A stretch of 64,000 nt of DNA, taken from the NCBI RefSeq assembly GCF_003148625.1, contig NZ_QGGO01000013.1:1-64000 (forward strand). The letters run 5' to 3'. A model generated the notes under the pieces. It had not been told where the DNA came from and made no database searches. It worked only from the letters and a program-made list of their open reading frames with translations. Position 1 is the first letter of the stretch; each line of letters starts with the position of its first letter. The translations under genes were made by a program, and so were the position numbers. Shown piece after piece: positions 21,138 through 44,121 of this stretch. The stretch comes from Arcicella aurantiaca. Lineage in GTDB: Bacteria > Bacteroidota > Bacteroidia > Cytophagales > Spirosomataceae.

Positions 21138-23543
21138 ATGTTACAGAATTATTTAAAAATCGCACTCAGAAACCTTCTTAGAAATAAGGTTTATTCATTT
21201 ATCAATATTGCTGGATTGGCTGTTGGTATGGCAGTGGCTATGCTTATTGGACTTTGGATATATGATGAAGTATCTGCTAATAAACACCATAAAAATTACG
21301 AAACCCTTTATCAGGTAAAAATGCACCAAACTTTTGACGGGCATCGTGGCACGCAGGACGCACTTCCATTTCCAATTGGTGTAGAATTGAAAACTAAATA
21401 TCCTGATTTTAAAGGAGTAGCTATGTGCGACTGGGGTTCAAAAAGCTCATTGGTATTGGGGACAAAAAAACTATTGAAAGAAGGACATTTTTTGGGCGAA
21501 GATGGTGTGGATATGTTTTCTTTAAATATCCTCAAAGGAGATAAAAACCCTTTACACGACCCGTATTCAATTGTTTTGACTGACGAAACAGCAAAAGCCT
21601 TTTTTGGCGATGAAAACCCAATCGGGAAAGTATTAAAATTTGATAATAAAACAGATGTAAAAGTAACTGCCGTTGTAGCAAAACAACCACATAATAGCAC
21701 CTTAAAATTTGATTTTTTATTGCCTTGGCAATTACAAGTGAGCATTTATCCTTGGATGAAGAACCAAGATACGGAATGGGGCAATAATTCATATCAAACT
21801 TTTGTGCAATTACGTCCAGAAGCAAATGAGGCGAATGTTAATGCCAAAGTAAAAGAGTTGGTACGTAGCCATTTCAAAGACGATAAGTTGATGTTCAACA
21901 CTATTAAACCTGAAATATTTATTCATCCAATGGCTAAATGGAGACTCTATTCTGAGTTTGAAAACGGGGTAAATACAGGCGGATTCATTAAATATGTGCG
22001 TTTATTTGGAATTTTGGGGCTTTTAGTTTTGGTAATTGCCTGTATTAATTTTATGAATTTAAGCACCGCTCGTTCTGAAAAAAGAGCCAAAGAAGTAGGA
22101 ATCCGCAAGGCTGTGGGTTCGGTACGAGAACAATTAATTGGGCAGTTTCTGAGTGAGTCGCTCATGATTTCCTTCTTTGCTTTCTTATTTGCTTTGGTTT
22201 TGGTTAGTTTATCTCTACCGTTCTTCAACACGCTGACCGAAAAGGAAATGAGTTTGCAACTGAACAATCCTCTTTTCTGGACGATTATGATTGCATTTAC
22301 CATTTTAACGGGCTTATTAGCGGGAAGTTACCCAGCGTTTTATCTATCGGCATTCAATCCTGTACGGGTACTCAAAGGAAATCTGCACGTAGGAAGGGGA
22401 AGTTCATTGCCTCGTAAGGTTTTAGTAGTGGTTCAATTTGCGTGTTCGGTCATTTTGATGATAGGTACTATCATTATTTATCAGCAAGTAAGTCATGGTA
22501 AAGACCGCCCCGTTGGATTTACGACAAAAGGCTTAATATCAATCAGTTGGACAGAAGATATTGATAAACATCATGAAGCAATTCGCAATGAGTTAGTAAG
22601 TTCTGGAGCAGCAACTTCAATTACAAAAAGTAATTCAGAACCTACCCAAATTTGGAGTAACAACAGAGGCTGGGAATGGAAAGGAAGTCAACCAAATGAT
22701 AAAGGGGTAATTTTTTCAACCATTGCTACCAGTTACGACTACGTAAAAACAATGGGTATTAAAATGATTGCAGGAAGGGATTTTTCAGAAGAATTTGCCA
22801 GTGATTCCTTAGGCGTAATCTTAAATGAATCCGCCGTAAAACGCATGGGTTTAGATAAAAAAGGGATAGCAAATGCCATAGGCGAAACATTAAAATGGGG
22901 TAACAGTCCAAATCTGAAAGTGATTGGCGTAATTCCTGATATGCAAATGGAGTCTCCTTTCAGAAAAATAAACCCTTTAACTATTGTATTTAACAAAACT
23001 TGGGTAAATAAGTTAGTAGTTCGTCTCAACCCAAGTATGTCGGCTTCTGATGCTATCAATAAGATTAAACCAATTATTGAGAAATATAATCCTGGTTTTC
23101 CATTCGACTATCAATTTGCCGATGAACAATACGCTAAAAAGTTCAATTACGAAGAGTTGGTGGGCAATTTAGCGGCTATTGTTGCACTTTTGGCAATCTT
23201 CATTTCGTGTTTGGGTTTATTTGGCTTAGCGTCTTTCATGGCAGAACAACGTACCAAAGAAATTGGCGTGAGAAAGGTTTTGGGAGCGAGTGTATTAAAC
23301 CTTTGGCAACTACTTTCAAAAGACTTTGTAATGTTGGTACTCATTGCCTGCGGAATTGCTATGCCTATTGCCTATTATGCCATGAACGAATGGCTCAAAG
23401 ACTACGAATACAAGATAAATATTGGATTGGGAGTATTCGTTTTAGTGATAGTTGTTGCGGTGCTGATAACATTACTGACGGTGAGTTATCAAGCAATAAA
23501 AGCGGCAATTGCAAACCCTGTAAAATCATTGAGAACGGAGTAG
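21138..23543 (+). CDS. MacB/FtsX-type ABC transporter permease 1
   Basis: 801 aa, inner membrane. MLQNYLKIALRNLLRNKVYS then TM1 (about 20-40), a large periplasmic domain (MacB_PCD), three TM helices near 285-425, a second periplasmic domain, and a final FtsX block (about 680-801) with QRTKEIGVRKVLGASV. The doubled FtsX arrangement with four plus four helices is typical of Bacteroidota. It has no ATPase of its own and probably pairs with an ATPase such as that at 37651. Ends in TVSYQAIKAAIANPVKSLRT, the same tail as permease 2. Confidence 0.9.
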   Translation: MLQNYLKIALRNLLRNKVYSFINIAGLAVGMAVAMLIGLWIYDEVSANKHHKNYETLYQVKMHQTFDGHRGTQDALPFPIGVELKTKYPDFKGVAMCDWGSKSSLVLGTKKLLKEGHFLGEDGVDMFSLNILKGDKNPLHDPYSIVLTDETAKAFFGDENPIGKVLKFDNKTDVKVTAVVAKQPHNSTLKFDFLLPWQLQVSIYPWMKNQDTEWGNNSYQTFVQLRPEANEANVNAKVKELVRSHFKDDKLMFNTIKPEIFIHPMAKWRLYSEFENGVNTGGFIKYVRLFGILGLLVLVIACINFMNLSTARSEKRAKEVGIRKAVGSVREQLIGQFLSESLMISFFAFLFALVLVSLSLPFFNTLTEKEMSLQLNNPLFWTIMIAFTILTGLLAGSYPAFYLSAFNPVRVLKGNLHVGRGSSLPRKVLVVVQFACSVILMIGTIIIYQQVSHGKDRPVGFTTKGLISISWTEDIDKHHEAIRNELVSSGAATSITKSNSEPTQIWSNNRGWEWKGSQPNDKGVIFSTIATSYDYVKTMGIKMIAGRDFSEEFASDSLGVILNESAVKRMGLDKKGIANAIGETLKWGNSPNLKVIGVIPDMQMESPFRKINPLTIVFNKTWVNKLVVRLNPSMSASDAINKIKPIIEKYNPGFPFDYQFADEQYAKKFNYEELVGNLAAIVALLAIFISCLGLFGLASFMAEQRTKEIGVRKVLGASVLNLWQLLSKDFVMLVLIACGIAMPIAYYAMNEWLKDYEYKINIGLGVFVLVIVVAVLITLLTVSYQAIKAAIANPVKSLRTE

Positions 23544-26095: not shown

Positions 26096-26157
26096 GTAGG
26101 AGCGAATAGCATTCGCCCTTGTATTTGATAAAATGGGCGAATACTATTCGCCCCTAC
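26096..26157. repeat. GTAG-bounded GCGAATA palindrome pair
   Basis: A 62-base element. The left end is GTAGGAGCGAATAGCATTCG and the right end its near-perfect complement ending CTAC (26154-26157), two mismatches over about 23 bases. Each end is itself a GCGAATA..TATTCGC hairpin. It begins six bases after the stop of permease 2. Second family member at 43960-44121. Confidence 0.85.
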
Positions 26158-37650: not shown

Positions 37651-38328
37651 ATGTTAAAAATAACCAATTTAGAAAAAATCTATCGTACTGAAGACATCGA
37701 AACGGTAGCTCTTAATAAAATTTCGGCGGACGTAAAAAATGGTGAATTTGTTGCCATTATGGGTCCTTCGGGTTGTGGTAAATCTACCCTCCTCAATATC
37801 ATTGGACTTTTAGATGATGCTGACACAGGAAGTTTCCTTTTCAATAACGAAGAGGTAATTTCTTACAACGAACGCAAACGTGCCGACCTCCGCAAACGTA
37901 ATATTGGTTTTGTGTTTCAATCTTTCAATTTGATTGATGAATTGACGGTTTATGAAAACGTGGAATTGCCATTATTGTATTTAGGAATTGATGCCGACGA
38001 ACGTAAAAAACGGGTAGAAGCGGTTTTGGAAAAAGTACAAATTATGCACCGTAGAAACCATTTTCCTCAACAGTTATCGGGGGGGCAGCAACAACGTTGT
38101 GCCGTGGCTCGTGCCGTGGTGAATAATCCAAAATTGATTCTTGCCGATGAACCAACGGGTAATTTGGACTCGAAAAATGGTAATGAAGTAATGGAATTAT
38201 TGACCGATTTGAACAGTAATGGAACAACGGTTGTAATGGTTACGCACTCGGAACATGACGCTCGTTATGCTCACAGAATTATTAGAATGTTGGATGGACA
38301 GGTGGTTATGGAAAATGTCCTTTCGTAG
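37651..38328 (+). CDS. ABC transporter ATPase (MacB/LolD type)
   Basis: 225 aa. Walker A GPSGCGKST (near 40), Q-loop FVFQSFNLIDELTVYENVELP, signature LSGGQQQRCAVARA, Walker B LILADEPTGNLDS, H-loop MVTHSEHDARYA. The LDE/LolD-type hallmark NVELPLLYLG fits MacB-like lipoprotein or macrolide exporters. Partner of the adjacent adaptor and permease 3, and possibly of permeases 1 and 2. Its TAG stop is formed by the GTAG that begins the repeat element at 38325. Confidence 0.95.
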   Translation: MLKITNLEKIYRTEDIETVALNKISADVKNGEFVAIMGPSGCGKSTLLNIIGLLDDADTGSFLFNNEEVISYNERKRADLRKRNIGFVFQSFNLIDELTVYENVELPLLYLGIDADERKKRVEAVLEKVQIMHRRNHFPQQLSGGQQQRCAVARAVVNNPKLILADEPTGNLDSKNGNEVMELLTDLNSNGTTVVMVTHSEHDARYAHRIIRMLDGQVVMENVLS

Positions 38329-38569
38329 AGACGTTGCCCGCAACGTCTTGTTCAATTATAAAATCCCGTTTCCTCTAAACTAAATATTTCACGATGAAGA
38401 CGTTGCTATCTCTAAACTAAATATTTCACCATGAAGACGTTGCTATCTCTAAACTAAATATTTCACCATGAAGACGTTGCTATCTCTAAACTAAATATTT
38501 CACGATGAAGACGTTGCAACCTCTAACCTAAATGTTTCACGATGAAGACGTTGCTGGCAACGTCTCTAC
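38325..38569. repeat. GTAG-bounded AGACGTTGC element with five 37-bp units
   Basis: The left end is GTAG plus hairpin AGACGTTGC-CC-GCAACGTCT (38325-38348). The right end is hairpin AGACGTTGC-TG-GCAACGTCT plus CTAC (38546-38569). Between them are five tandem 37-base units starting at 38373, 38410, 38447, 38484 and 38521, each holding one half-hairpin AGACGTTGC. The GTAG gives the ATPase its stop codon; the right end stops 12 bases before the permease 3 start. Confidence 0.9.
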
Positions 38570-38586
38570 AAATAACAACAATGACC

Positions 38587-40998
38587 ATGTTACAAAATTA
38601 TCTAAAAATAGCCTACCGAACTTTGCTTCGTTACAAAGCATATACAGCTCTAAATGTGTTGGGGCTTACACTTGGGTTGACTTGTGCCATTCTGATTTAT
38701 TTGATGGTTTCTTTCCACCTTAGCTTTGATAAATTTCACTCAAAAGCTGACCGTGTGGTTAGAATCGTTTCTTACTTCAACACACCCGATGGTGAATTTT
38801 ATACCCCAGGTGTACCCGCTCCTTTGGGTGATGCCGCTCGAACTGAAATTGCTCCATTAGAAAAAGTCTCAATGGTGTATAATGAAGATAACGTTACGGT
38901 TGCCTTGATAGAAAACAACGTACCGACCAAAAAATTCAAAGAAGATAATGGAGGTTTATTTTTTGTTGAACCCGACCTATTTTCAATCCTTGATTTGAAG
39001 ATTTTGAAAGGAAATGTTCAAGATTTAACACAACCTAATGTCGTTTTTTTAACAGAAAAAATGGCTAAAAAATACTATGGAGACAAAGACCCAATTGGCA
39101 AAATATTACGCCTTGATGCTCGGTTGAACGTAAAAATTGTAGGTATTGTACAAGACTTTCCATCAAATACCGACATAAAAGGTTCAATAATAGCCAGTTA
39201 CCTTACTCGTGACACATATAGTCCCGAATGGGCTAAACACATGAAAATGCACTGGGGAGGTATAAATAGTTCAACTCAATGTTTTGCTTTACTAAAGCCC
39301 AATACCAATATTGAGCAAGTTCAAAAGTTGACTCCCGCCTTCATGGCGAAACACTATACTTCAGCCGAAGAAAGAAAATCTCGGTTTTTATACATTCAAC
39401 CAATTTCAAATATCCACTTCAACGAAAATTATAATGGAATGCCCAAAAGTATTATTACTACTTTGGCAATCATTGGTTTGCTCTTATTAATTACTGCCTG
39501 TATCAATTTTATCAACATGGCTACCGCCCAAGCACTCAAACGCTCAAAAGAAGTAGGTGTTCGTAAAGTAATGGGAAGTTCGAGAGGTCAGTTATTCTGG
39601 CAATTCATCGCTGAAACTGCCATTATTACTATTTTGGCTGGTTTAATATCATATCTTTTAGCCACGATGCTTTTCCCATTGTTGAGTAATTGGCAAGAAG
39701 GAATTATTGGTTACAGAATGATTTTCTCAGAATTAATTGACCTTCGTTTTGGGGTAATTTTCACTTTCACCATAGTCTTGGTAATCTTTATTTCTGGCTC
39801 ATATCCAGGATTCGTTTTGAGTGGGTTTAATCCTGTGGTGGCTCTGAAAGGTAAAATCAGCACCCAAAGTCTGGGAGGTGTTTCAATTAGAAAAGCCTTA
39901 GTTGTAACGCAATTTGTGATTACCCAAATGTTGATTATTGGAACAATTGTAGTGAGTTCTCAAATGAATTATTTCATAACATCTGAAATGGGCTTCAAAC
40001 ATGACGCTATCTTACAAATGCCTGTACCTCAACAAGATGCCACAAAACTACAAACGCTCAAAACGCAATTCAAAGAAATCCCATCTATTGAAAAAGTAAC
40101 CTATATTTGGACTCCTCCTATGTCGCAAAGTCATAACACAACCAATGTAAAATATGATAATCGACAAACCGATGAAAAATTTAGTTTGAACACAAAATTT
40201 GCAGACGAAGACTATGTCGGCTTATATGGTATCAAAATCGTTGCGGGAAGAAACATTGCACATATAGACACCATGCGTGAAACATTGGTAAATGAAGAAT
40301 TAGTGAAACGTTTGGGAGAGAAATCTAACGATAAAGTTTTGAATAAAATTTTGGAATTTAATGGTCGTAAAATCACCATTGTAGGCGTTGTAAAAGATTA
40401 TCACGTAGAGACATTACACTCAAAAATTCCACCATTGGCAATCACTTCCACAACAAATATGTACCATACCGTTGCTGTCAAAATGAACATGGCGGATGCT
40501 CAAAATACCATTAAAAAGTTGGATAAAATTTGGAGTGCTACCTTCCCTGACTTTGTGTTTGAATATGAATTTTACGATGAAGCTATCGGTAAAATGTACC
40601 AAATTGAAACGGCTATGTTAGACTTAATTCAAGCATTTGCTTTAATCGCTATTCTGATTGGTTGCCTCGGACTTTATGGCTTAGTTAGTTTTATGGTTGC
40701 ACAAAAAACCAAAGAAGTAGGCGTAAGAAAAGTGCTTGGAGCTTCGGTAGGACAGATTTTGTGGTTATTTGGGAAAGAATTTTCAATACTAATTATCATT
40801 GCATTCATCATTGCAGCTCCGCTTGCATGGTGGGTTCTGAATGGGTGGCTACAAGATTTTCAATATCGTATTGATATTGGTGTAGGGATTTTTATTATGG
40901 CGGTTTTACTCACAGGATTAATTGCCGCAATTACCGTTGGCTGGCAATCTTCCAGAGCAGCCTTAGCAAACCCTGTAAAGAGTTTACGAACAGAGTAG
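38587..40998 (+). CDS. MacB/FtsX-type ABC transporter permease 3
   Basis: 803 aa from ATG 38587 (MLQNYLKIAYRTLLRYKAY, matching permease 1). ATG 38581 would add two residues, and the ATG at 38542 lies inside the repeat element. Same doubled FtsX architecture as the other two permeases: periplasmic MacB_PCD, TM block with RSKEVGVRKVMGSSRGQLF, second periplasmic domain, closing QKTKEVGVRKVLGASV. Works with the ATPase and adaptor upstream. Its TAG stop is the GTAG of the element at 40995. Confidence 0.92.
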   Translation: MLQNYLKIAYRTLLRYKAYTALNVLGLTLGLTCAILIYLMVSFHLSFDKFHSKADRVVRIVSYFNTPDGEFYTPGVPAPLGDAARTEIAPLEKVSMVYNEDNVTVALIENNVPTKKFKEDNGGLFFVEPDLFSILDLKILKGNVQDLTQPNVVFLTEKMAKKYYGDKDPIGKILRLDARLNVKIVGIVQDFPSNTDIKGSIIASYLTRDTYSPEWAKHMKMHWGGINSSTQCFALLKPNTNIEQVQKLTPAFMAKHYTSAEERKSRFLYIQPISNIHFNENYNGMPKSIITTLAIIGLLLLITACINFINMATAQALKRSKEVGVRKVMGSSRGQLFWQFIAETAIITILAGLISYLLATMLFPLLSNWQEGIIGYRMIFSELIDLRFGVIFTFTIVLVIFISGSYPGFVLSGFNPVVALKGKISTQSLGGVSIRKALVVTQFVITQMLIIGTIVVSSQMNYFITSEMGFKHDAILQMPVPQQDATKLQTLKTQFKEIPSIEKVTYIWTPPMSQSHNTTNVKYDNRQTDEKFSLNTKFADEDYVGLYGIKIVAGRNIAHIDTMRETLVNEELVKRLGEKSNDKVLNKILEFNGRKITIVGVVKDYHVETLHSKIPPLAITSTTNMYHTVAVKMNMADAQNTIKKLDKIWSATFPDFVFEYEFYDEAIGKMYQIETAMLDLIQAFALIAILIGCLGLYGLVSFMVAQKTKEVGVRKVLGASVGQILWLFGKEFSILIIIAFIIAAPLAWWVLNGWLQDFQYRIDIGVGIFIMAVLLTGLIAAITVGWQSSRAALANPVKSLRTE

Positions 40999-41262
40999 AG
41001 ACGTTGCCTGCAACGTCTTCTTTTCACAAAAAACAACGTCTTCGTAAGAATTATTAATAAAATTTCTTGCGAAGACGTTGATGATCATAAATTTAAGACG
41101 TTGGTAAATGCAAGACGTTGATAATCACAAATTTAAGACGTTGGTAAATGTAAGACGTTGATAATCATAAATTTAAGACGTTGGTAAATGCAAGACGTTG
41201 ATAATCATAAATTTAAGACGTTGGTAATCATAAATTTAAGACGTTGCAGGCAACGTCTCTAC
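40995..41262. repeat. GTAG-bounded AGACGTTGC element with 24-bp perfect terminal inverted repeats
   Basis: Bases 40995-41018 (GTAG plus hairpin AGACGTTGC-CT-GCAACGTCT) are exactly complementary to 41239-41262 with the loop and CTAC. Inside are about four 40-base units of TTGATAATCATAAATTTAAG then ACGTTGGTAAATGCAAGACG. The GTAG at each end contains the TAG stop codon of a flanking gene: permease 3 on the plus strand (40996-40998) and the TPR protein on the minus strand (41259-41261). Layout equals a BIME: a REP and an inverted REP with outward GTAG. Confidence 0.92.
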
Positions 41263-43157
41263 AACAAACTCGCTAAACTTTTCTTCGCCGCTTCATAATT
41301 GGGTTGCATAGTCAATGTCTTTTGGAAATCTGCAATTGCCCCTACTCTATCACCTAAAGTTTGTTTGGCTAATCCACGATTATAAAAATGTACAGGGTCT
41401 TGGCTACCTTCTTTGTCAATTACTTGATTGAAGTTTTCTAAAGCCTTCGTTGCATTGCCCGAAGCTAAATAAGAAGTAGCCAATAAGCCTCTTGACATAA
41501 CAATTTTATCATTTTTCATCGTCAGCGATTTCTCAAAATCAGGAATTGCTTTAGCGGGCTGATTGAGGTTAAAATACGCCATTCCACGATTCATATAGGT
41601 TTCTCCTGAACTTGCTCCACGTTTAATTGCTTCCGAGAAGTATTCCAACGCTTTTTGTGTATCACCTTTAATTCCATAAGCCGTTCCAAGATTTTCCCAA
41701 GGACCTGCATCATCTTTATAGCCCAATTCAATGGCTTTTTTATTGGCTTCAATAGACTCTTCTAATTTCCCTTCTTTCTCTCCCACATATTTGCCATAGG
41801 TATAATACGCACGGTAATCCTTCGGGAAAAGTTTGATAATTTGTCCGAACAAGGTACCTGTATTTTGCCAAGTTTCTACTTGTTTACGAGTTTGGAACAA
41901 ACAAAAAGCGACAAAGGCAAACGCTCCCACCCAAACCACTTGCTTCAGACGTTGATTTTTTTCTGCCAATTGGTCTAAAAGCATTGCTAACACAAAAAAC
42001 AGTCCAATGTACGGAATGTATGTATAACGGTCTGCCATGATAGCTGCACCCACAGAAATAAACTGTAAAACTAACGCTACTGTAACGGCAAAAAAGCCAA
42101 TCCCGAAGAGAAACAATTTTGATTTTCGAGCTGAAAAAATCGTTAATCCAACAATAATTAATGAGAAAACAATACCTGTTGAGTATAATTTATTGGCTCC
42201 ATCGGGTTCATAAGGATAAAATGTACAAAGATTTATTGGCACAAAAAGATGGTAGAAATACATTACAAATCCATAACCTGCGTACTGAATTCTGTCCATC
42301 ATTGAGAACACTTTTAGGCTCAATGCAGAACGCTGTTCACCAATAATATGAATCGTACCATGAAAATCCCCTCCACTTTGAATATTGGTGGCAATCAAAC
42401 CAAAAAGTAATGAAAATACTAAAAAAGGCACTTTTTCAAGAATGGCTTTTGTGTCAATTTTACGGTCACGCCAATAATCGAACAAGAAGAAAACAATCGG
42501 TAAAACAACCGCTTGGGCTTTTGACAAACACGACAAAACGAACAATATCAAACTGATTATCAGATACTTATTTTTCTTTTCAGAATCTAAATAATATAAG
42601 TATGAAATACATCCTGCAATAAAAAAGAAGCCGTACAAAACGTCTTTTCGCTCCGAAATCCATGTTACGGACTCTACTCTCATGGGGTGAATAGCGAATA
42701 ATAAAGCGGCAAAAAACGATGCCATTAAACGGCGTTTTGTCAGAAGCATCATCAACCAAAAGACCATCAAAGTATTCAATAAATGAATGAAAAAGTTGGT
42801 AACGATAAACGCTTTTGGATTTTCAGCCCCCGACACAGACGAATTTATCATCATCGAGACAATCGTCAATGGGTGATAGTTAAGGGCAACGTGGCTCTTA
42901 AAAGCTTCGCCAAAATGTCCTTTGGGTTCAGTTACGAGATAGTCATTTTCAATATAAACGTGGTCGTCCCAATCAACAAATTGATTGTCAAATCCACCCG
43001 AAAATGCGACAAAAAGCGTGATGATTAATGCTCCAATAGCGAGCCATTTTCCGTAACTGAATGAAGTTTTAGAAGAACCACTTTCATTTTTAACCGTTTG
43101 ATTAACAGTTACTTGAGAAATGTTCGATTTCTTTTGAGGTTTATTATTTTTTGACAT
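41259..43157 (-). CDS. TMTC-like membrane protein with C-terminal TPRs
   Basis: 632 aa. About ten to eleven TM helices occupy 30-430, after a Lys/Ser-rich cytoplasmic start. The first luminal/periplasmic loop has FVDWDDHVYIENDYLV and HYHP-like NYHPLTIVSMM; the next reads AIHPMRVESVTWISERKDVL. These are hallmarks of the TMTC/DUF1736 GT-C-like family. Residues 440-632 hold five TPR repeats (YGIKGDTQKALEYFSEAIKR and others). Eukaryotic TMTCs O-mannosylate proteins; in bacteria a glycosyltransferase role is plausible but unproven. Confidence 0.82.
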   Translation of the reverse strand: MSKNNKPQKKSNISQVTVNQTVKNESGSSKTSFSYGKWLAIGALIITLFVAFSGGFDNQFVDWDDHVYIENDYLVTEPKGHFGEAFKSHVALNYHPLTIVSMMINSSVSGAENPKAFIVTNFFIHLLNTLMVFWLMMLLTKRRLMASFFAALLFAIHPMRVESVTWISERKDVLYGFFFIAGCISYLYYLDSEKKNKYLIISLILFVLSCLSKAQAVVLPIVFFLFDYWRDRKIDTKAILEKVPFLVFSLLFGLIATNIQSGGDFHGTIHIIGEQRSALSLKVFSMMDRIQYAGYGFVMYFYHLFVPINLCTFYPYEPDGANKLYSTGIVFSLIIVGLTIFSARKSKLFLFGIGFFAVTVALVLQFISVGAAIMADRYTYIPYIGLFFVLAMLLDQLAEKNQRLKQVVWVGAFAFVAFCLFQTRKQVETWQNTGTLFGQIIKLFPKDYRAYYTYGKYVGEKEGKLEESIEANKKAIELGYKDDAGPWENLGTAYGIKGDTQKALEYFSEAIKRGASSGETYMNRGMAYFNLNQPAKAIPDFEKSLTMKNDKIVMSRGLLATSYLASGNATKALENFNQVIDKEGSQDPVHFYNRGLAKQTLGDRVGAIADFQKTLTMQPNYEAAKKSLASLL

Positions 43158-43426: not shown

Positions 43427-43963
43427 ATGTCTTCAAAAATCAATAATATAAACTTTAAACTTCGTCATTTTCAAACTGGCGACCAAGATTCTTTGGTAGC
43501 CAACGCCAATAATATCAAGATTTTCAATAATGTCAGAGATGTTTTCCCACACCCTTATACGCATGATGATGCTTCGTGGTGGATTGATGCTAACAAGGAA
43601 ACGGATAAACCTGTTACTTGCTTTGCGATTGATGTTGATGGAACGGTAATTGGAGCGGTTGGTTTTGTTCTCGGCAATGATATTTATCGAATATCCGCAG
43701 AAATTGGTTATTGGTTAGGCGAAAATTATTGGGGAAAAGGCATCGCTTCCGAAGCGGTCAAATTAATGACGGATTATACTTTCAAAAGTTTCCCCCACAT
43801 CGAAAGAATTTGGGCAGGAATTTTTGACTTCAATAAAGCGTCGATGCGAGTTTTAGAAAAGGCTAACTACCATTTTGAGGGAATTCAGAAGAAATCAGCC
43901 ATTAAAAATGGGGTTGTTTTGGATATTCATGTGTATGTGAAATTTAGAGAAATAACAAAGTAG
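43427..43963 (+). CDS. GNAT family N-acetyltransferase (RimJ/RimL type)
   Basis: 178 aa. GNAT fold: N-terminal NFKLRHFQTGDQDSL, acetyl-CoA loop IGYWLGENYWGKGIASEAVK, and C-terminal ERIWAGIFDFNKASMRVLEKANYHFEG, all typical of the RimJ/RimL-like group (acetylation of protein N-termini or small amines). Single gene; nothing ties it to the sugar-acid cluster 11 kb away. The TAG stop overlaps the GTAG that opens the next repeat. Confidence 0.88.
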   Translation: MSSKINNINFKLRHFQTGDQDSLVANANNIKIFNNVRDVFPHPYTHDDASWWIDANKETDKPVTCFAIDVDGTVIGAVGFVLGNDIYRISAEIGYWLGENYWGKGIASEAVKLMTDYTFKSFPHIERIWAGIFDFNKASMRVLEKANYHFEGIQKKSAIKNGVVLDIHVYVKFREITK

Positions 43964-44121
43964 TGTCGAATAGCATTCGCCTGTTTATTTTGACGAATAC
44001 TATTCGCCTATTTATTTTGACGAATACTATTCGCCTATTTATTTTGACGAATACTATTCGCCTATTTATTTTGGCGAATACTATTCGCCTATTTATTTTG
44101 GCGAATACTATTCGCCACTAC
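43960..44121. repeat. GTAG-bounded GCGAATA element with five internal units
   Basis: The left end is GTAGTGTCGAATAGCATTCG (from 43960) and the right end its near-complement ending CTAC (44118-44121). Between them are five units of about 25-26 bases, CCTATTTATTTTGACGAATACTATTCG. Both neighbours stop within it: the GNAT gene at the left GTAG and the MFS gene at 44108-44110, where GGC GAA TAG is the hairpin sequence itself. Confidence 0.88.

Follow-up and report, generated by a model that had tools for sequence, protein, structure and literature searches.

A GTAG REP-like inverted dimer whose outer TAG triplets are the stop codons of two convergent Arcicella genes

In Arcicella aurantiaca, a permease gene and a TPR gene converge on an element of 268 bases (40995-41262), and both genes end within its outermost four bases. 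This arrangement, found in a window of 64,000 nucleotides (the whole stretch of DNA that was analysed), raises the question of what kind of element this is and how its ends came to serve as stop codons, which bears on how REPs come to sit at the ends of genes. The initial annotation had described the element as BIME-like, with 24-base perfect terminal inverted repeats that each consist of GTAG and a 9-bp hairpin, and had taken the outer TAGs as the in-frame stops of the permease on the plus strand and the TPR protein on the minus strand. All of this is confirmed by the sequence and by the open reading frames 38542-40998 and 41259-43157. In each terminal REP, GTAG is followed by the arms AGACGTTGC and GCAACGTCT, which pair over 9 bp and enclose a loop of 2 bases. 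When the 268 nt were folded as RNA, a free energy of -93.8 kcal/mol was obtained (z -10.4), and none of 200 shuffled sequences was equally stable. By its repeats and its RNA fold, this copy is an inverted pair able to form one large hairpin, that is, a GTAG REP inverted dimer comparable to a BIME or REPIN. With considerable confidence, we regard the element as a non-autonomous GTAG REP of the double-foot kind of subclass 2.4, mostly present as an inverted dimer with the feet outside. The features of the locus are collected in Table 1.

Table 1. Positions of the element, its neighbours and related repeats in the window
Feature	Position	Strand	Remarks
ABC transporter ATPase (ABC_tran)	37651..38328	+	stop within the GTAG of the second copy
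Second copy of the element	38325-38569	.	between ABC ATPase and permease; spacer with AGACGTTG at 37-bp steps
MacB/FtsX-like permease ORF	38542..40998	+	stop is the TAG of the left GTAG
Left terminal REP	40995..41018	+	GTAGAGACGTTGCCTGCAACGTCT; GTAG and 9-bp hairpin; TAG 40996-40998 is the permease stop
Spacer	41019..41238	.	tandem copies built on half-hairpins (AAGACGTTG...) and a 17-bp internal hairpin
Internal hairpin of the spacer	41034-41050/41064-41080		17 bp; counterpart in the nearest relative, G088
Right terminal REP	41239..41262	-	exact reverse complement of the left REP; TAG 41261-41259 (minus strand) is the TPR stop
TPR protein	41259..43157	-	three element-free relatives have C-termini longer by 1-2 residues
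Paralogous permease, internal control	21138..23543	+	ends NPVKSLRTE, GTAG stop, without element
REP dimer of another GTAG family	26096..26157	.	5 nt past a permease stop
REP dimer of another GTAG family	43960..44121	.	left TAG ends the 43427-43963 gene

A second copy, absent from the earlier description, lies directly upstream of the permease, and the ABC ATPase frame is terminated by its left TAG (38326-38328). The listed start of the permease frame falls within this copy; because the paralogue begins MLQNYLKIA, the sequence suggests that the true start is the ATG of the same MLQNYLKIA shortly after the second copy. The permease and its paralogue share their last nine residues, and the paralogue stops at a bare GTAG. 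In the G088 counterpart of the spacer hairpin, a reading by eye gave a similar sequence with paired base changes.

Ends and spacers of the genomic copies

Copies were located by pattern search and then examined as sequence stretches. In the genome (5.93 Mb, 70 contigs), the 13-base end occurs 35 times exactly and seven times with one mismatch, as compared to a single match for the reversed pattern used as a control; in the window there are six matches to GTAGAGACGTTGC (four exact, two with 2 mismatches) where 0.51 are expected. Thus, the repeated ends are not due to chance. The copies are dispersed, mostly extragenic and in a few cases intragenic. They comprise 15 convergent pairs of 90 to 442 bp, one of which is a GTTTC variant, five exact single ends and one 28-bp palindrome (contig C31), which carries GTAG and CTAC feet on one hairpin and is present in many copies in other genomes. 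Compared with the usual REP copy number of more than 100 (PMC2817692), the family is small.

The terminal hairpins are kept while the DNA between them rearranges. At the loci shared with G088 (genes A, B, C, L and M), 7 of 192 bases differ in eight ends, two of these differences constituting a paired change in one hairpin, as compared to 7 to 20% in the coding flanks. The spacers are wholly different at gene C and at the RadC locus, alike only in their first bases at gene L, and related but rearranged at genes A and M. At gene B, G065 has a bare 28-bp palindrome in which both feet have changed together (TTAG...CTAA). Twelve natural 28-mers from several genomes, which were chosen from palindrome scans and are therefore biased towards structure, share a 13-bp helix with 98.7% of cells paired, a value reached by none of 500 shuffles, and six of their pairs are changed on both sides. 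At genes L and M (L160 and L167 as compared to L045 and L050), the gene-side end is kept in G088 and a different sequence, with other right neighbours, follows beyond the other end, as if the breakpoints fell at the ends of the element.

These spacers also bear on the question of whether the whole 268-bp unit could be one MITE-like mobile element that carries its spacer along. The 15 convergent end pairs would suit such a unit, as would the 7 of 15 spacers that share 15-66 nt with another spacer (best match 66 nt at 77%, between two copies 9 kb apart). However, the shared stretches are short and resemble the half-hairpin repeats of which the often tandemly repeated spacers are built, 8 of 15 spacers match none, and among the 15 pairs we did not find a whole spacer common to two loci, that is, a conserved spacer moving as one unit. 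The different spacers at the RadC locus likewise speak against it. Moreover, the terminator-like hairpin in the spacer of the IDH pair recurs at this locus in three relatives: G088 and G077 are element-free there, and G065 has only a decayed element hairpin at the far side. The IDH 'element' is native intergenic DNA capped by two hairpins, and we consider a single MITE-like unit very improbable.

Three copies or repeats deserve mention on their own. Locus L043 (4682-4994, contig C31 of G000) contains tandem hairpin copies inside an open frame, read by eye as EKTLQATS repeats, and the palindrome seems to be used there as protein-coding sequence. The spacer of the element copy at L046 (4917-5172, contig C45) holds a complete REP dimer of another GTAG family, and L289 (1501-1786, contig C9) consists of five direct copies of another GTAG hairpin at steps of ~71 bp.

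Stop codons at the element ends

Throughout the genome, the TAG of the GTAG closes an open frame of at least 60 codons at 15 of 39 ends, or of at least 80 codons at 14 of 39, a denominator that includes L047 (GTTGG, probably not a member) and L048 (a decayed single end). With the 60-codon criterion, at least one end is a stop in 12 of the 15 pairs, and both ends are stops in two. Seven further ends lie 4 to 9 nt past a stop and one 19 nt past, so that 22 of 39 ends are found at a stop or no more than 9 nt after one.

Two other GTAG families of the same genome, which resemble classic REPINs more, differ sharply: among their 63 distinct ends (65 places), two are stops at 80 codons and four at 60 codons (Fisher test, p 1.6e-5 and p 1e-4, respectively). 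The same family was also counted in stretches of seven genomes, which belong to four other genera; there, stops make up 13 of 104 ends (80 codons, p 0.003), which is close to background. The latter was determined with a strict ORF caller in 292 kb around the copies, where 22 of 172 other noncoding-compatible GTAGs are stops, as compared to 13 of 32 noncoding element ends (binomial p 8e-5); 7 of 32 element ends and 10 of 172 background GTAGs lie within 10 nt after a stop. This caller placed 7 of the 39 ends inside genes, some of them by its own error, and missed two of the 15 stop ends. In view of the low shares in other GTAG families and other genera, the stop bias is both strong and specific to the family as found in this genus. 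Hence, the earlier proposal that the tetranucleotide of the element serves as a stop holds for the other copies in this genome and for the comparison with GTAGs placed elsewhere, but not as a general property of the family. Of 16 ORFs that run into an end, 15 do so in the TAG frame (binomial p 8e-7). This frame test was not used as main evidence, since entry in another frame is possible only via insertion within a gene; background GTAGs, other families and other genera provide the fairer controls.

Since the first search pattern required GTAG, and selection on stop codons would preserve an intact GTAG, the overlap might in principle be produced by the search itself. A genome-wide search for the hairpin only (up to 2 mismatches) returned 41 hairpins, 35 of them perfect, and many GTAG-less hairpins away from stops were not found among these matches: 33 of the 35 carry a GTAG or CTAC foot, and the two footless ones sit in a tandem array inside a gene. 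The other GTAG families were moreover subject to an equal search bias. An artefact of this kind is scarcely credible.

Native protein ends in element-free relatives

The initial annotation had further proposed that insertion truncates or replaces native 3' ends. For 13 of the 15 stop-end genes (A to M), orthologues from seven congeneric genomes served for comparison; the other two genes, ABC ATPase and permease, have many paralogues and were left out. Nine of 79 orthologue rows were excluded: seven carry the element, a decayed copy lies close to gene E of G088, and gene B of G105 is situated at the end of a contig. The protein ends at the identical position in 47 of the 70 element-free comparisons, and one or more element-free relatives of this kind exist for 11 of the 13 genes: all relatives agree for genes C, D, H, J and K, some for B, E, F, G, I and L, and none for A (the TPR gene) and M. 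The stops of the relatives are a mix of TAA, TGA and TAG. Replacement is thus not the rule, and element-free homologues with the same C-terminus, which had been named as evidence against it, exist in part, including the paralogous permease with its bare GTAG.

Replaced ends are nevertheless indicated in two genes. In G088, the TPR protein has its native end, SLGV-TAG, with the element 2 nt further; here it ends in SLL and the TAG of the element is the stop, which makes it look like a fusion in which the native end was lost and the element's TAG took over. The last codon of gene D is AGT or AGC in six of seven relatives and AAT in the seventh, whereas TCG-TAG is read here, and this end looks like one in which GTAG was brought in or the end was replaced. 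At gene G, the filled site is exactly 20 nt, or one hairpin, longer than the G088 site, which reads GTAA, and the 22 nt to the next ATG are kept in length; we read this as what would be a clean insertion adjoining the stop. A bare GTAG stop at the equal position was observed in eight comparisons (gene F in G052; G in G105; H in G077, G036, G105 and G097; J in G088; K in G052). GTAG may therefore have pre-existed at J, K, F, G and H, and the route may be a different one there.

These sites invite the reading that the mobile unit is a 20-nt hairpin core (with CTAC), that GTAG is its target, and that bare xxG-TAG stops were hit with the protein left intact. The exact gain of 20 nt at gene G, the bare GTAG stop of the nearest relative at gene J and that of the paralogous permease, the prevalence of unchanged ends and the abundance of GTAG among sampled stops (35 of 230, element ends included) are all in line with it. 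However, it is weakened by the codons of gene D, which, as with the TPR gene, would call for several prior changes. In the available text of PMC8266576, moreover, GTAG is part of the REP and its guide, and cleavage occurs at CT or CA. Nor do the other two GTAG families of this genome, or the same family in other genera, favour stops. We consider this reading rather unlikely.

A further explanation, to which we assign a minor but somewhat greater probability, is that the hairpins are RNA elements of gene ends, kept for transcript ending, mRNA 3' protection or translation, with the stop overlap resulting from close packing. Hairpin selection at RNA 3' ends would equally keep the ends alike, and the small change of the ends over a divergence that rearranged the spacers, the paired changes in the helix of the natural palindromes, the clustering of ends at or just after stops and the stability of the fold (z -10) agree with it. 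On the other hand, intragenic copies exist, and packing alone does not produce exact overlap: 11 of 63 ends of the other families lie within 10 nt past a stop and two overlap one. Furthermore, the 3' hairpins of element-free orthologues are no stronger than elsewhere. When the 90 nt after stops were folded, z < -2 was obtained for 44% of 70 element-free orthologues, 48% of 188 genes genome-wide and 21% of 5' sides. The notion of a pre-existing hairpin slot at these gene ends was rejected, because the element sites are not special as compared to the genome.

The RAYT clade, published relatives and a possible route to gene ends

PF01797 has seven RAYT-like matches in this genome, and the motif is absent within ~1.5 kb of all seven genes; in seven other genomes with 45 matches, it was found near none of the 30 loci scanned. 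This profile, however, missed the relevant RAYT clade, which was reached via the L057 protein and then the G007 protein. In G007 the RAYT is surrounded by GTAGAGACAGGGCATGCCCTGTCTCTAC. A palindrome with the family stem GTTGC lies inside the RAYT gene in G112, G049, G123, G111 and G095, and by position only in G075, and G049 in addition has the stem palindrome on both RAYT flanks. In the five translated RAYT genes the inner palindrome is in frame, and sister stems (AGGGC, AAGGC) occur within the RAYTs of G007, G095 and G111. Across nine RAYT ORFs scanned, eight exact palindromes were counted (five with the family stem), all in frame 0 and reading VET.HA.SL. The proteins contain NHVH or NHIH, together with YIxNNP in some and YIxxNP in others (the subclass 2.4 motifs are NH[IFV]H and YIxNNP). 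Their best named family is NF047646 (REP_Tyr_transpos) with 56-70 bits, under its cut-off of 80, and a structural-chain match was obtained to TnpA_REP (4er8_A, E 8e-4).

With E <=1e-10, the clade is present in 19 of 21 element-bearing genomes and in 67 of 179 others (p 2.7e-6, uncorrected for kinship). At this threshold it was found neither in this genome, where the best match is 5.7e-4 and the assembly is rated 99.88% complete, nor in G053. As to the suggested check for a RAYT gene flanked by the same hairpin, a RAYT family thus accompanies the palindrome in related genomes, but none of the RAYT-like genes here is flanked by the motif. Because a close RAYT of the carrier clade was not found in this genome, the mobility of the family here is something that we infer. 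In all, a concrete palindrome of Bacteroidota and cyanobacterial plasmids is tied to a RAYT clade.

Several of these properties have precedents. Double-foot REPs, with GTAG and CTAC at opposite ends of a hairpin, belong to RAYT subclass 2.4 (group 4) of Cyanobacteria and Bacteroidetes, possibly arose by central deletion of an inverted dimer according to the authors, and have been described inside RAYT genes (PMC6006769, 2018). The present family resembles them in the two feet on one hairpin and in the palindrome inside the RAYT of six related genomes, and differs in its mostly long inverted dimers, variable spacers and strong stop overlap, as well as in that no close match to a cognate RAYT was found in this genome. 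Members of the GTAG super-family likewise have this foot and stems of 6-13 bp, many of the families have loops of 2-3 bases, and dimers with GTAG outside occur near gene 3' ends; their description (Di Nocera 2013, PMC3733652) already states that these REPs 'often provide' TAG stops. In the part of that paper available, GTAG repeats are listed for other phyla, Bacteroidetes appear only among the CGTC repeats, and the spacers of HH dimers tend to be conserved, whereas they are variable here. REPINs are likewise inverted REP doublets that form one hairpin, although 71 bp separate the two 16-mers in GI doublets (Bertels and Rainey 2011, PMC3116915) and the present elements measure 90-442 bp. Hairpins close to stop codons are also known from E. 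coli, in the form of REPs that lie within 15 nt of stops and for which an effect on translation has been proposed (RepRanger, PMC12306157); in the present family, the foot is the stop codon itself. Hence, GTAG REPs, their dimers, position at gene ends and use as TAG stops, as well as double-foot REPs and REPs inside RAYTs, are already known from these texts. A limited literature search returned no paper giving this sequence as a REP; new are the occurrence of this family in the genus, the RAYT clade that probably goes with it, the strong family-specific stop bias, the native ends that are mostly kept, and the kept ends as opposed to rearranged spacers.

On the favoured reading, a RAYT acting on single-stranded DNA would have placed single hairpins at or up to ~10 bases past gene ends, and the repeated hairpin arms would have allowed dimers to grow or shrink through exchange and tandem duplication. 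The terminal GTAG could have become a stop along two routes, either by landing on an existing xxG-TAG stop, or by loss of the bases between the native end and the element, where the in-frame TAG would have covered the loss. We think that fusion after arrival is overall more likely than landing on an existing stop, and that both are in use. Intragenic copies would be tolerated in another open frame (GTA GAG ACG...). A bolder version, which we hold to be unlikely, is that in this lineage a RAYT-type REP used G-TAG stops as landing site or fusion base, whereby genes would have acquired a hairpin that begins at the stop codon, with the protein little changed or unchanged, and that the same palindrome in another frame is a harmless VETL.ATS linker, the sequence being tuned as a stop at gene ends and as a peptide inside genes. 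Since related empty sites exist, landing, later fusion and selection can be separated by sequencing of strains.

The palindrome and its variants were also encountered further afield. In G123, the RAYT has beside it a series of GTAGATACGTTGCATGCAACGTATCTAC palindromes, whose stem is a paired variant of that of the family (L379, 2428-3157, contig C25). Among 72,556 plasmid records, 16 contain the palindrome or near copies, in cyanobacteria and Persicobacter (E <=0.1); exact or near-exact 28-bp palindromes are found on plasmids of Planktothrix, Anabaena, Nostoc, Calothrix, Persicobacter and others (L323-L326), and one palindrome on the Persicobacter plasmid abuts the end of an Hsp70-family gene. 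In another genus, many of the 28-bp palindromes are clustered within ~100 kb, where they accompany tandem genes of ~800-900 codons and often lie 3-14 nt past the stops of these genes (L228-L232 on G123 contig C1, 5.5-122 kb; L237-L240 on G086 contig C6; L265-L267). All three of the tandem genes tested encode MacB/FtsX-like permeases, like the permease of the window, and in these genes of genus g32 the palindrome either is separated from a TAA by about ten bases or joins on directly, as GAGTAG.
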